Source: Aquabacterium sp. | Lineage (GTDB): Bacteria; Pseudomonadota; Gammaproteobacteria; Burkholderiales; Burkholderiaceae_C | Direction of reading: 5' to 3' | NCBI GenBank assembly: GCA_023266355.1 | Contig: JAHFQM010000002.1 | Span: 496,001 to 560,000, forward strand | Length of the DNA stretch: 64,000 bases | Shown here: positions 54,952 through 59,776 of the stretch, piece by piece | Numbering within the stretch: the stretch's first letter is position 1 | Layout: the number at the start of each line of letters is the position of its first letter | Notes under the pieces: generated by a model | The model's database searches: none | Told to the model about the DNA's origin: nothing | What the model saw: only the letters and a program-made list of their open reading frames with translations | Made by a program: the position numbers and the translations under genes

Positions 54952-55040
54952 CTCAATTCCTTTGGCAACAGGGTTCACGGGTTCACCGCGAACCACTGCC
55001 GGCATTTCGGCCGAAATGCACCAACATTGAGCGCGCAAAG

Positions 55041-55074
55041 AAAAATCCCCTGAGAGGCGAACCTGTCAGGGGAT
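55041..55074 (-). terminator. Rho-independent terminator (minus strand), probably the original tRNA-His terminator
   Basis: ATCCCCTGA (55045-55053) and TCAGGGGAT (55066-55074) form a perfect 9-bp stem with a 12-base loop. On the minus strand it is followed by TTTTTC, a good U-tract. It lies 9 bp left of the left att repeat. Because minus-strand transcription of ppiD and tRNA-His would have reached it before the element inserted, it is probably the displaced terminator of that unit. Confidence 0.8.
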
Positions 55075-55082
55075 CTCTTATA

Positions 55083-55102
55083 CGGTGGGGTGGCTGATGG
55101 GA
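55083..55102. repeat. Attachment-site repeat, left end of the element
   Basis: CGGTGGGGTGGCTGATGGGA is an exact copy of the tRNA-His 3'-end segment at 57732-57751, in the same orientation. It marks the distal boundary of the integrated element. This sequence belongs to a tRNA 3' end but has no tRNA beside it here. Confidence 0.9.
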
Positions 55103-55167
55103 AACGCCGTCGGCACCATCAGAAACCTTATGAATCAATTACTTAGGCGACTGCCTGCCGCCTCTGC

Positions 55168-55185
55168 GTCCGGGTGTCTGTCCGG
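55168..55185 (+). other. Putative integrase arm site, left end
   Basis: GTCCGGGTGTCTGTCCGG consists of two GTCCGG copies 12 bp apart. It matches the right-end motif at 57643-57660 in 16 of 18 positions and is in the same orientation. It lies 65 bp inside the left att repeat. Confidence 0.6.
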
Positions 55186-55381
55186 GGCATTGTGGCCATG
55201 ATACAGCGCACATTGCCCCGCGCCAAGTCATCCCACCGCAGAGTGCGTGCCACACCATGCAGGCGACCATAGGGCTGGAATGGGCCATAAGCTGTGGCAA
55301 AAATCGTCACCTGAATCACGCGAGGGAGTTACGTTTGACTGACTTACCGGAAGACTTGGTATCTCGTTTGAACTGTCTTGA

Positions 55382-55783
55382 AGCAATGTTGGCTGCTTCT
55401 CACACCTGCCGAACTCGTCTGCGGCCACCCTTGGGGGCACCCAAACGGTCACGACCATCAATGAACCCGGTCTCTATGCCCTGATCTTCCGCAGCCACAA
55501 GGCAGAGGCCAAAGCCTTTCAACGATGGGTCACGCATCACGTGCTCCCGGCCATCAGGCAGGACGGGCTTTACATCAGGGGCGAAGAACGCCTGTTGTCT
55601 GCGGCGACACAGGAAGAACTCCAGGCACAGCTTGACCGACTCAAGGCGGCAGCAACCCAAGCCATCGAAGCCAAGGCGATACGGGGCCTCTCTGCCTTGG
55701 AAGAACGGGATGCAAGGTATGACGCCTTCAAGTTCTTTGGCAAGGACAGCAAGCGCAAGCCTCGCCCTCGCCTTCCTCGGTAA
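55382..55783 (+). pseudogene. Decayed phage antirepressor (BRO-N type)
   Basis: The open frame from 55382 to the TAA ending at 55783 has no ATG or GTG start before 55541. It encodes the conserved second half of the BRO-N/ANT domain: GTQTVTTINEPGLYALIFRS, then KAEAKAFQRWVTHHVLPAIR. A charged helical tail follows (EERDARYDAFKFFGK). The N-terminal part of the domain that should precede it is replaced by unrelated sequence and a TGA at 55379-55381. It is thus 5'-truncated and probably not functional. BRO-N genes are typical of prophages. Confidence 0.8.
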
Positions 55784-55860
55784 TCAGCCCAGCCCCAGCA
55801 GCCCCAGCAAGGCCCCTCCCGCCCCCGCTATGGGCCTCGGGAAGGTTGCCAAGGGAGGCC

Positions 55861-57708
55861 TCAGCAGTTGCCTTGCAACCTCTGCGGGATGCTCAGGGGG
55901 TAGGCGATCCGCTCCAGGTCAGCCTTGACCAGTTCCAAGCCTGCGGGGCTGGAGTGGTAGCTCTGCCACTGCAACAGCGTCAGATGCTCAGGCTTGTGCC
56001 CCGTGAGGCCCCAAGTGGGAATCCCACGGTTGCCCGCATAGGTGATGAGCGTCTTGCGGAAGACGTACAACCCCTTTACCTGACGCCCCGGGGGCGCTGT
56101 GTCGTCATACAGGCCGATGGTCCGCAGGAAGTCCGTGAAGGCCTGCCCAGCGACTTCGTAGGGGTTGCCTTTCTTGACCCTGACACCAGGGAACAGACGA
56201 TCAGACCCGGCTTTCTTCATGCGCTCAAGGTAGGCGGGGAGACCCAGCCGCACCAGTTCAGAATGAAGGGGCAAGCGCCGCGTCTCGCCTGTCTTCACGG
56301 TCTTGGTGACACCCTTCCCCGCGGGGGTGTGTTCATCGACAAGCAGGAAGAAGGTGTCGCCCTCCTTGCCCCAGTCACACTGCGGGTTCAACTGGCAAAG
56401 CTCCCGCGGGCGGGCACCAGTGAACAAGCTGATGACAGGCAACCAGTAAGCGGCATCCGCCCCGATGTCTTGGGCAATGGCTGCGAACTCCGGCCCCTCA
56501 AACAGACGCTTAAGCTCAGGCATGGTCAAGTCACGCTGTGTGTCCTCACCAGCTTTGCGCCCGCCCGTGTATTCGATGCCATCCACGATCAGGGCCGGGA
56601 AGCCCTCGTCCCCATAGTCCCGTCGGGCATCTCTCAGAAACGCCTTGAGAGGCGCACGGTAGTTGTCATTGAAGGTGCGGGGGCCCATGACCTCCTCGGC
56701 TTCCTCCTCCAGCATCTTGGCAACTGCTTCGCCCTGATCGAAGCGCGTGGCCCAATCCGAGGGCAAGCCGCAGATGTCGTGCAGGAAAGCCGTCACCTGA
56801 CGCTGGCGCAACTCCGCTACCGGGGTCTGAGCCCCGACCATCTCCCGGAACAACTCCAGGCACCGGACCACCTTGCGCGTGTAGCCCGTGGGGGCCTTCT
56901 GCTTGACCTGAATGTAGGCCTTGATGATGGCCCCAATGGTCAACACAGTGGCCAACTTCGCGGGGGCCTTGATGGGCTCAGGGAGGGGCGGCGGAGGCAC
57001 GGCCTTGCGCTCATACAGGCGCTTGGTGCTGGGGTCAATGAACTCTAGGGACAGAGCCTCAGCAAAGGCGAAGACCAGGGCGCGGAAGTGCCCATCATCC
57101 TTGACGTATGGGATGGAATCTCGGCTCAGCTTGGCCTCAACGATCAACCCCAGGGTGACCGCGCTGTAGCCGCTGAGAACATCGCCCGCCGCGCCGTCGA
57201 AGACTTCATGGTGGGCCTCCAACTCATCGCGGCCTTCAAACCTGCGCAGCATCTCGTACTGCCTGCGGTTCTGATCCTGAGCCCAGCGCACAGCAAGGGC
57301 CTTGATGGCCTCGGCGGTCCACATGCTGAGCATCAAAGGGCGCCCCCGGAAGATGCCCCCTGCGATCTCTTGGCGAACCTCATCCAGCATCCCAGTGAAG
57401 GCGATGTAGTGCATAAGCGACAAACGCTCAGCGGCACGGCCCGCCTTGAGGCCCAGGTTCACAGATGGATAGCTGCCAAGGTGTGGCGCAAGGTCTTTGG
57501 GGACCGAAGGCCGAAAGTAAGCACGGCCATCCGTCTTGACGTGATAGCCGTACTTGTCTTTTCTTGTACTTGGGGACGACAAGCTGAGTTTCCCTTGATC
57601 GAACAACTGGAGCAGTTGCCCGAGGTCTTTCTCAAGGGAACTGTCCGGGTTTGTGTCCGGACAGGCTTGCCTAAGTGATTGATGTGCTTGGTTCTTTTTT
57701 GAATTCAA
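55861..57708 (-). CDS. Tyrosine-recombinase integrase of the tRNA-His element
   Basis: The 615-residue protein has an unusually long N-terminal region (about 420 residues) with the DUF6538-like start YHVKTDGRAYFRPSVPKDL, then a phage-integrase catalytic domain. Visible active-site parts are Arg433 (TGARPREL), the hairpin Lys472 region (KTVKTGETRRLPLH), Arg551, His571 (TGHKPEH) and the nucleophile Tyr584 (QSYHSS). The first histidine of the second box, normally H-x-x-R, is Tyr548 (YVFR), which is unusual. It starts with TTG at 57708, an atypical start chosen because no ATG lies near the conserved N-terminus. It sits at the tRNA-proximal end, reading inward. Confidence 0.9.
   Translation of the reverse strand: MNSKKNQAHQSLRQACPDTNPDSSLEKDLGQLLQLFDQGKLSLSSPSTRKDKYGYHVKTDGRAYFRPSVPKDLAPHLGSYPSVNLGLKAGRAAERLSLMHYIAFTGMLDEVRQEIAGGIFRGRPLMLSMWTAEAIKALAVRWAQDQNRRQYEMLRRFEGRDELEAHHEVFDGAAGDVLSGYSAVTLGLIVEAKLSRDSIPYVKDDGHFRALVFAFAEALSLEFIDPSTKRLYERKAVPPPPLPEPIKAPAKLATVLTIGAIIKAYIQVKQKAPTGYTRKVVRCLELFREMVGAQTPVAELRQRQVTAFLHDICGLPSDWATRFDQGEAVAKMLEEEAEEVMGPRTFNDNYRAPLKAFLRDARRDYGDEGFPALIVDGIEYTGGRKAGEDTQRDLTMPELKRLFEGPEFAAIAQDIGADAAYWLPVISLFTGARPRELCQLNPQCDWGKEGDTFFLLVDEHTPAGKGVTKTVKTGETRRLPLHSELVRLGLPAYLERMKKAGSDRLFPGVRVKKGNPYEVAGQAFTDFLRTIGLYDDTAPPGRQVKGLYVFRKTLITYAGNRGIPTWGLTGHKPEHLTLLQWQSYHSSPAGLELVKADLERIAYPLSIPQRLQGNC
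57643..57660 (+). other. Putative integrase arm site, right end
   Basis: GTCCGGGTTTGTGTCCGG is two GTCCGG copies 12 bp apart and the near-twin of the left-end motif at 55168-55185. It lies inside the start of the integrase gene, 71 bp inside the right att repeat. It is part of a wider inverted repeat, CTGTCCGG-N8-CCGGACAG, at 57641-57664, which could also bind the integrase as an autoregulator. Confidence 0.6.
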
Positions 57709-57731
57709 GGACTTAGCACATCACAAAGAAG

Positions 57732-57751
57732 CGGTGGGGTGGCTGATGGGA
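57732..57751. repeat. Attachment-site repeat, tRNA-His end
   Basis: This is the second exact copy of the 20-bp att core. It covers the 3' end of tRNA-His (acceptor stem and CCA side) plus three bases beyond it, the usual target for tyrosine integrases. Confidence 0.9.
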
Positions 57752-57811
57752 CTCGAACCCACGACAACCAGAATCACAATCTGGGACTCTACCAACTGAG
57801 CTACAGCCACC
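57735..57811 (-). tRNA. tRNA-His (GTG)
   Basis: On the minus strand the sequence folds as tRNA: acceptor GTGGCTG with G-1 at 57811, D-arm TAGCTCAGTTGGTAGAG, anticodon stem-loop CCAGATTGTGATTCTGG with anticodon GTG, and T-arm GTGGGTTCGAGTCCCAT. The encoded CCA ends at 57735. It lies 39 bp after the ppiD stop. It is complete although the element is integrated at its 3' end. Confidence 0.97.
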
Positions 57812-57850
57812 GCAGCAAAGACAGAAATTATAGCGTGCTTTTCAAGGCTG

Positions 57851-59776
57851 TCACGATGCTGACGCAGATTTTTGCGCGCTCATCACTTTCTTGCCTTCAT
57901 TCAGGTACTCGACCTTGTACTTGTGCTTGAGGGCTTGATAGTAGGCATCGGCTTCGGCACGGCCCCAGTACGAACCGAACTGGTTCTGGGTTTCCTTGAG
58001 CTCCTGGGGCGAGATCTCCAGCGGCAGCACCTTGTTGACCTTGAGCACGGCCACGCCGTCGGCGCCCAGGTCCACCAGCGTGAAGGCAGGCAACTGCTTC
58101 TCGGGCACGCGCAGCGCGGCGTCCAGCACCAGCGGTGGCTGCGAGAACATGGTCTTGCGCGACATCTTCACCGCGGCAGGCAGTTCGGCCTTGTCGGGTG
58201 CGGCCTTCCAGTCGGCCAGCTTCTTGTCGGCATCGGCACGGGCGGCCTTGGTGGCGGCATCGGCCACCCAGCGGGCGCGCAGTTCGTCCTTGACCTCGTC
58301 GAAGGCACGCAGCGCGGACGGGCTGTACTTGATGATGCGCGCCGACACCAGCTTGTTGGTGCTGACCTCGACCGCCTCGGTGTTGCGGCCCTTCGCGCGG
58401 TTGTTGGCGTCGAACAGGGCGTCCAGCACGCGTCGGTTGCCCAGCGGACCCTGGTCCTTGTTGCCCGGCACGTGCAGCACGCCGTTCATGGTCAACAACG
58501 GCAGTTTGAGCTCATCGGCCACGGGCTTGAGGCTGTCGGACTGCTCGTACACCGAGTTGGTGAAGCGTTCAGCGGCTTCGGCGAACTGGCGCTGGGCCAG
58601 TTGCTTGCGGGCCTCGTCTTCGATCTGGGCACGCACGGCCTCGAAGGGTTGGGCCGTGCCGCCGCGCACGTCGTTGAGCTGGACGATGTGGAAGCCGTAC
58701 TCGGTTTCCACCAGGCCGCTGACCTCGCCCTTCTTGAGCTTGAAGGCGGCTTCGTCGAAGGCCTTGACCATGGCGCCGCGGCCGAAGAACTCCAGGTCAC
58801 CACCGTTGGCGGCAGAGCCGGGATCGTCCGAATTCTTGCGTGCCAACTCGGCGAACTGGGCAGGGTTTTGTTTGATCTGGGCCAGCAGGCCTTCGGCCTT
58901 GGCGCGGGCGGCCTTCTTCTGGTCGGCGGTGGCGCTGGCGTCCACCTTGATCAGGATGTGGCTGGCGCGGCGCTCTTCGGGCGTGCTGTAGCGGGCTTCG
59001 TTTTCCTTGTACGAGCGGCGCAGGTCGTCTTCGCTGACGGTCACGCGCTGCTTGAGGGTGTCCAGGTCCAGCACCACGTACTGCACGTCGGCCTTCTCAG
59101 CGGCGGTCAGCCAGGTGGCGTTGGCGGGGTCTTTGTAGAAAGCCTGCAGTTGCTCGGGCGTCGGGTTGAGCTGGGCCAGGTACTGCTTGGGCTCGAACTT
59201 GGTCCATTGCACTTCGCGCACCTGGAACAGGGCGTCCACCGCCTGGCGGTTGGACAGCAGCGAGGTCTGGCCGGTGGCCTGCACGCCGCCCAGCACCTGG
59301 CCCAGCACCAGCTCCTGGCGCACCATGGCGACGAACTGGTTGGGCGTCATGCCGCGCGCTTCCAGCAGGCCCTTGTTGAAAGAGCCGTCCGGGTTGAACA
59401 GACCGGCAAAGCGCGGGTCGGTGGTGAACTGGCGCAGCAGGCGGTTGTCGCTGACGCTCAGGCTCTGGTCGGCGGCGGCTTCGGCCAGCACGTACTGGCG
59501 AACAAGCGCATCGAGCGACTGGCGGCGGGCTTCGGGGGTGTCGAACTGGCTGGCATCGACATTGGGCTGCTGCGAACGCACGCGCTCCATGAAGTTGCGG
59601 TGGGCGTTGTCCCACTCGGCCTGGGTGATGCTTTGCTTGCCGACCTTGGCCACCACGCCATCGTCGCCAGAGAACTTCGAATACCCCTGGAGGCCGAAGA
59701 CGACGAAAGACGGCAGGATCAGGATCAGCAGCAGGAGCTGCAGGAGGCGCGTGTGCTTGCGGACGAAATCAAACAT
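57851..59776 (-). CDS. ppiD: Periplasmic peptidyl-prolyl isomerase PpiD
   Basis: PpiD is an inner-membrane-anchored folding helper at the Sec exit. The 641-residue protein has a single membrane segment at about 12-33 (LLQLLLLILILPSFVVFGLQ), a SurA_N-like helical chaperone domain to about residue 240, and a parvulin domain at about 262-360 (RASHILIKVDASA, GDLEFFGRGAMVKAFDEAA, ETEYGFHIVQLND). A second inactive parvulin-like region follows. The length fits the family (about 620-640). It lies between tRNA-Val and tRNA-His and follows hupB, as in many betaproteobacteria. Confidence 0.96.
   Translation of the reverse strand: MFDFVRKHTRLLQLLLLILILPSFVVFGLQGYSKFSGDDGVVAKVGKQSITQAEWDNAHRNFMERVRSQQPNVDASQFDTPEARRQSLDALVRQYVLAEAAADQSLSVSDNRLLRQFTTDPRFAGLFNPDGSFNKGLLEARGMTPNQFVAMVRQELVLGQVLGGVQATGQTSLLSNRQAVDALFQVREVQWTKFEPKQYLAQLNPTPEQLQAFYKDPANATWLTAAEKADVQYVVLDLDTLKQRVTVSEDDLRRSYKENEARYSTPEERRASHILIKVDASATADQKKAARAKAEGLLAQIKQNPAQFAELARKNSDDPGSAANGGDLEFFGRGAMVKAFDEAAFKLKKGEVSGLVETEYGFHIVQLNDVRGGTAQPFEAVRAQIEDEARKQLAQRQFAEAAERFTNSVYEQSDSLKPVADELKLPLLTMNGVLHVPGNKDQGPLGNRRVLDALFDANNRAKGRNTEAVEVSTNKLVSARIIKYSPSALRAFDEVKDELRARWVADAATKAARADADKKLADWKAAPDKAELPAAVKMSRKTMFSQPPLVLDAALRVPEKQLPAFTLVDLGADGVAVLKVNKVLPLEISPQELKETQNQFGSYWGRAEADAYYQALKHKYKVEYLNEGKKVMSAQKSASAS

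Follow-up and report, generated by a model that had tools for sequence, protein, structure and literature searches.

The sequence CGGTGGGGTGGCTGATGGGA occurs twice in the window, the whole 64-kb stretch of DNA that was analysed, and the two exact 20-bp copies bound a unit of 2.65 kb beside a tRNA-His gene (Table 1). There is no third match in the window at up to three mismatches, and none of 100 shuffled controls (mean 0.02) contained two copies; the repeats are not a product of chance. The unit is present once in its own 4.02-Mb genome, and no second copy was found among the genomes searched. One integrase ORF fills most of it, accompanied by a 5'-truncated antirepressor gene and by about 320 bp at the left end in which four scanned ORFs gave no family match. 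GC content is 0.56-0.62 in the left end, antirepressor and integrase as against 0.67-0.68 in the flanks, 0.48 in the leader and 0.74 in the 77-bp gap between the two genes. The original prediction had named exact att repeats, the second of them formed by the tRNA-His 3' end, together with an integrase, a decayed antirepressor and a gene-free stretch, and this description agrees with what was found.

Table 1 Features of the unit and its borders (positions in the 64-kb window)
Feature	Position	Strand	Basis and remarks
Intrinsic terminator, displaced by 2.65 kb	55036..55082	-	Directly 3' of tRNA-His in G011/G024; hairpin and T-run
Core repeat, far side	55083..55102		Exact repeat; adjoins the displaced terminator
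Presumed left-end region of the parent, in which no gene was recognised	55103..55426		Four ORFs of 53-77 aa, no family match
IHF-consensus site AATCAATTACTTAG	55133..55146	+	Distance to the far core 30 nt; no other exact WATCAANNNNTTR in the window
3' part (118 codons) of a Bro-N antirepressor gene that lacks residues 1-69	55427..55783	+	PF02498 positions 41-96 only; identity to P0096
GC-rich gap between two convergent genes	55784..55860		55789-55888 83% identical to G025 sequence
Integrase gene of the tyrosine recombinase type; about 573 aa if read from TTG, the likely start	55861..57582	-	PHROG integrase, homologues, conserved residues, predicted fold
Leader from tRNA-His to integrase, 152 nt	57583..57734	-	Forms a hairpin; scan gave no terminator-like site; contains two IHF-like sites close to the consensus
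CATCAATCACTTAG, IHF-like (14-mer with one mismatch)	57671..57684	-	47 nt from the tRNA-side core
ATTCAAGGACTTAG, IHF-like (14-mer with one mismatch)	57703..57716	+	15 nt from the tRNA-side core
Core repeat, tRNA side	57732..57751		Exact repeat; 17 bases are the tRNA 3' end, 3 lie beyond
tRNA-His(gtg), integration target	57735..57810	-	ARAGORN; Rfam tRNA, 65.6 bits; complete 3' end on this side of the element
Promoter-like site GTGACA-16-TATAAT before tRNA-His	57827..57854	-	11/12 positions

The integrase frame is open without interruption from 55861 to 57708 (615 aa). Its start is more likely the TTG at 57582 than the upstream end of the frame, as suggested by the homologue P0003, which starts at the same place, and by an AAGGGA just before it. 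In the upstream part, codons 21-43 are identical to those of the relative G025 at every base, and five of the six earlier codon differences are non-synonymous. Searches with the 615 codons returned no Pfam or NCBIfam match at E values up to 1, unlike DUF6538 (PF20172)-type tyrosine recombinases (P0071, P0074), which are homologous to this protein over the C-terminal half and the catalytic residues. That the protein is an orphan is ruled out by a PHROG integrase match (E 1.5e-11), by 95 homologues among the 7,996 candidates scored and by the predicted fold. R433, K472, Y548, R551, H571 and Y584 are conserved in the aligned family, some of them nearly invariantly, and we take them, from general knowledge of tyrosine recombinases, to be the catalytic set. 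A tyrosine-recombinase fold is predicted by the structural model (mean pLDDT 81.9, pTM 0.48), the best structural match of which is the integrase of Tn1549 (E 1.6e-5); when solved structures were searched by sequence, a single match came up, at E 0.5. The integrase bears no sign of decay, since it deviates at none of the 119 otherwise invariant columns of a 25-row alignment. Relatives were absent from two scans of viral contigs, and phage records yielded one weak match (31% over 23% of the query) and plasmid records four, all below 60% identity.

The antirepressor, for which 29 homologues were found from 440 candidates, is identical in 118/118 residues to P0096 from its residue 70 to the end. 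P0096 is a 187-aa protein named at its source "prophage antirepressor-like protein", on a contig of 51,812 bp. Upstream of the codon 70 point, the window sequence does not align with the first 69 residues of P0096; the truncation would be explained if a deletion had brought the left-end region up against codon 70. None of 77 antirepressor-bearing viral loci carried the window integrase in the stretch compared, and no parent having this integrase and antirepressor together was retrieved. The longest contig listed for P0051, a distant integrase (41%), has the same length, 16,323, as that listed for P0101, a related antirepressor (73%), so that the two may share one contig.

When phages and plasmids were searched at the DNA level with the left part of the unit, only distant antirepressor matches came back. 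Positions 55113-55185 share 84% identity with one end of a different insert, in G022, where an exact core copy and then a terminator of the tRNA-His type follow, on a separate contig from the tRNA-His gene of that genome (L066, L076). A stretch of 30 nt in the left end also resembles DNA of family genomes, at 87-90% identity in L080, L081, L086, L088 and L089. The matching DNA belongs to the 5' coding region of an Arm-DNA-bind integrase gene at L080 and L081, lies near host genes at L083 and L087, and was kept only as a lead. The sequence at the gap recurs in G025 (L057 7321-7422) just behind a 364-aa ORF and before another gene; from their translations, the ORF reads as antirepressor-like and its neighbour as resolvase-like.

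A tRNA-His probe matched 42/42 genomes of the genus, some of the lower-scoring matches being other tRNA genes. Compared by BLAST with 29 other tRNA-His loci (L014-L042), the left flank (55036-55082) was matched in five, in each case directly or a few bases behind the tRNA-His 3' end: G024 (98% identity), G011 (96%), G009 (80%), and G028 and G064 (77% each). When the two window flanks were joined, the alignment ran across the tRNA-His end with one core copy in G011, G024 and G009. Six loci were aligned in all; the terminator behind tRNA-His differs in its loop in G028 and G064 and is unrelated in G001. On the tRNA strand, the flank forms a strong hairpin followed by Ts. Because this flank folds as an intrinsic terminator and abuts tRNA-His in relatives, the element is a true insertion between tRNA-His and its own terminator, which now stands 2.65 kb away. 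Most relatives carry a different sequence behind tRNA-His, a point that we count against the explanation favoured below. The core itself, at up to one mismatch, is present in 21/42 genomes, once in 16 and twice in five (G000, G022, G017, G007 and G015).

The direct repeats, one of which is the tRNA 3' end, the empty sites and the presumed catalytic set of the recombinase are jointly the marks of a tRNA-integrated element, and the original prediction of an integrative element in tRNA-His is borne out by the att repeats and the empty sites. Of the checks it had proposed, the search for an empty tRNA-His site with one core copy succeeded in the three relatives whose flanks join, and the search for the same integrase at tRNA-His elsewhere revealed the same family in G025 and G656. 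In G025, approximately the first 60 codons of an 80-84% identical integrase frame lie beside tRNA-His and are followed by other sequence to the contig end. In G656, the Ottowia oryzae integrase (P0018; L072) shows 56-59% identity along most of the protein. Its open frame begins 26 bp behind tRNA-His and reads the same way as the tRNA, and leader sequence is shared with the window. It differs in that its 3' end overlaps an IS3-type transposase pair, and no second core copy was found at L072.

At E 1e-60, the integrase was found in 4/399 family genomes, its own included, in 1/29 genomes of the genus of G656 and in 4/398 relatives of G755, three draws of genomes that overlap; a wider profile at E 1e-40 matched 7/399 genomes of the order, again including its own. 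Other inserts occupy tRNA-His in G025, G022, G017, G013 and G007, and G028, G062 and G033 have integrase sequences or fragments of 38-45% identity farther behind the gene. In G022, a different integrase-like gene, judged by eye, stands beside tRNA-His. Inserts of approximately 44 kb lie between tRNA-His repeats of 52-53 bp in G013 (L062/L063) and G007 (L064/L065). The second core copy of G017 was considered as a further mini-element and belongs instead to a different insert, with a displaced terminator and an apparent integrase tail. This insert (L102 5859-8014, 2.16 kb) has its own hairpin behind the tRNA and, beyond the far core, a terminator of the type of another relative; its integrase tail was recognised by eye. 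At a tRNA-Val gene in G131 (L060 9326-15317), type I restriction-modification genes with full domain make-up follow a distant relative of the integrase.

Three IHF-like sites lie near the cores, and no others occur in the window at up to one mismatch. The 14-mer AATCAANNACTTAG fits the IHF consensus, WATCAANNNNTTR. At up to one mismatch, all eight matches to AATCAANNACTTAG in 30 tRNA-His loci, two of which are those of the window, fall within 150 nt behind the tRNA, that is, eight in 4,353 nt behind tRNA-His and none in 90,529 nt elsewhere. A reading of the 14-mer as an arm site of the integrase is set aside in view of 30 contexts and of its frequency in the genus, with 272 exact matches in 42 genomes against one for the reversed control; it is a general motif of the genus. 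Two of the eight matches (L041, L042) are themselves in terminator hairpins. The motif was also seen in hairpins behind tmRNA, tRNA-Ser and tRNA-Thr genes and next to TTATCCACA boxes in a place that looks like oriC, where two inverted copies are spaced by about 305 bp (L202 1501/1807, L199 1501/1797, L204 1501/1806). Since the 14-mer is so common genus-wide, the matches in the window are of limited weight for att function; they are IHF-like sites and weak evidence of it. The two element ends also resemble each other to a modest degree: their score was reached by 0/1000 shuffles but by 15/1990 random window pairs.

The integrase lies downstream of tRNA-His and codirectional with it, behind a conserved leader of approximately 152 nt, a length that follows from placing the start at TTG 57582. 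This arrangement of a tRNA followed by an integrase is already known and was named STI, and a coupling of integrase genes to tRNA transcription is an earlier suggestion cited in the same source (PMC2951348). It recurred in a survey of 21 integrase-bearing loci, several from one genus and with the weaker matches G008, G014 and G020 left aside: a tRNA was in view before the integrase in 16, in the same direction in 16/16, and the other five had no tRNA in the stretch examined. L058, L067 and L073 have the tRNA-His terminator, together with several hundred bases, interposed between tRNA and integrase. Between tRNA-His and the integrase of the window, no terminator-like site was found by a scan that also missed the displaced native terminator and is thus not exhaustive. 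Because of this result, transcripts from the tRNA-His promoter are predicted to run on into the integrase. A real, though tentative, possibility is that the integrase has a promoter of its own, overlapping the att arm and repressed by the integrase, like intS of KplE1. The conserved leader leaves room for such a promoter, and the codirectional, tRNA-first integrases tested in E. coli were negatively autoregulated, according to PMC2951348. Against this, no promoter-like site was detected on the minus strand of the leader by the scan, which covered matches to the sigma-70 consensus.

We consider the element to be an integrated, internally deleted prophage that has kept its ends, an open integrase and the last 118 codons of an antirepressor, and give this reading a probability of about 0.75. 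The attP of the parent would have recombined with the tRNA-His 3' end through the integrase of the window, with IHF probably bending both att arms, and the core on the element side would have restored tRNA-His. One deletion would then have joined the left-end region to antirepressor codon 70 and removed the phage body. This deletion is read from one truncated gene, and several events could have occurred instead of one. The resulting scar is predicted to stay put unless a related phage supplies an excisionase, because none was recognised inside. No structural phage gene is left in the 2.65-kb unit, and the ORFs scanned include none of the capsid, tail and packaging genes of a complete temperate phage; the truncated Bro-N antirepressor is the phage-type gene that, besides the integrase, marks a prophage remnant. 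The identity of the antirepressor tail to P0096 on its 51.8-kb contig points to a prophage reduced by deletion.

The original prediction had instead proposed a satellite remnant or a minimal integrative element, a wording that lacks support, given the prophage-like P0096 and the absence of satellite hallmarks from the ORFs scanned; both are possible, with nothing specific in their support. The first of these, in which the parent was a phage satellite or a small genomic island of 5-10 kb carrying an integrase, an antirepressor and cargo since partly lost, seems unlikely to us. Elements with distantly related integrases can indeed be small, as in G228 (L059), with exact repeats 7.66 kb apart at tRNA-Ser, G294 (L068), of 9.5 kb at tRNA-Ser, and G755 (L074), of 5.6 kb at tRNA-Arg with stops in its integrase, and the G131 integrase is followed by the restriction genes described above. 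However, the short element of G228 has genes for a virion protein resembling T7 gp14 and for a ParB-like protein and may also be a prophage relic, and P0096, with its 118 identical residues and its prophage name, lies on a contig of 51.8 kb. In addition, no replication or capsid- or packaging-interference genes of phage satellites (PICI, P4-like) were present among the ORFs scanned, nor any relaxase or transfer genes of ICEs or IMEs.

It is improbable that the deleted prophage is instead a live miniature, an integrase cassette transcribed from tRNA-His with both att ends working, in which the integrase is supplied in trans and the unit is excised and carried with the excisionase of a related phage. 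Least probable of all, and very improbable in our view, is a self-contained minimal element in which integrase and ends are the whole mobile unit and move as 2.65 kb: although both ends and the integrase look intact and an independent 2.16-kb unit occupies tRNA-His in G017, the cut antirepressor marks decay, the unit has no second copy among the genomes searched, that of G017 holds, by eye, only an apparent integrase tail, and the integrases of G025 and G656 are cut short beside other sequence.

The deleted prophage has a close counterpart in KplE1 (CPS-53) of E. coli K-12. KplE1 keeps the excisionase TorI, whereas none was recognised in the window element. As described in PMC2951348, KplE1 too is a defective prophage in a tRNA gene, with its integrase directly behind the tRNA and in the same direction, and the duplicated core is short in both (16 nt in KplE1, 20 bp here). 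It differs in its target, argW instead of tRNA-His, and in size, keeping 10.2 kb and 16 ORFs as against 2.65 kb and one whole gene. Prophages of Variovorax share with the window element both the tRNA-His(GTG) gene and a tyrosine integrase; they are typed as Podoviridae of Type 3, of approximately 52-68 kb in table rows of PMC9658991. According to that source, their att repeat is approximately 50 bp long and starts from the anticodon arm, whereas the window repeat comprises 20 bp at the extreme 3' end, a difference of the kind that would be seen with a different integrase. A closer resemblance to the Variovorax prophages than that of the window element is seen in the 44-kb inserts of G007 and G013, with their repeats of 52-53 bp.

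As a type of element, the unit is an ordinary relic, and as a system it is already understood. As a deleted prophage, it would represent an extreme end-point of decay: the two ends and the integrase would have survived longer than all else. The tRNA-His gene is a recurrent insertion site in the genus. The precise landing place of the element is known, between the tRNA and its terminator, and this position makes possible a simple test of whether tRNA transcription feeds integrase genes.
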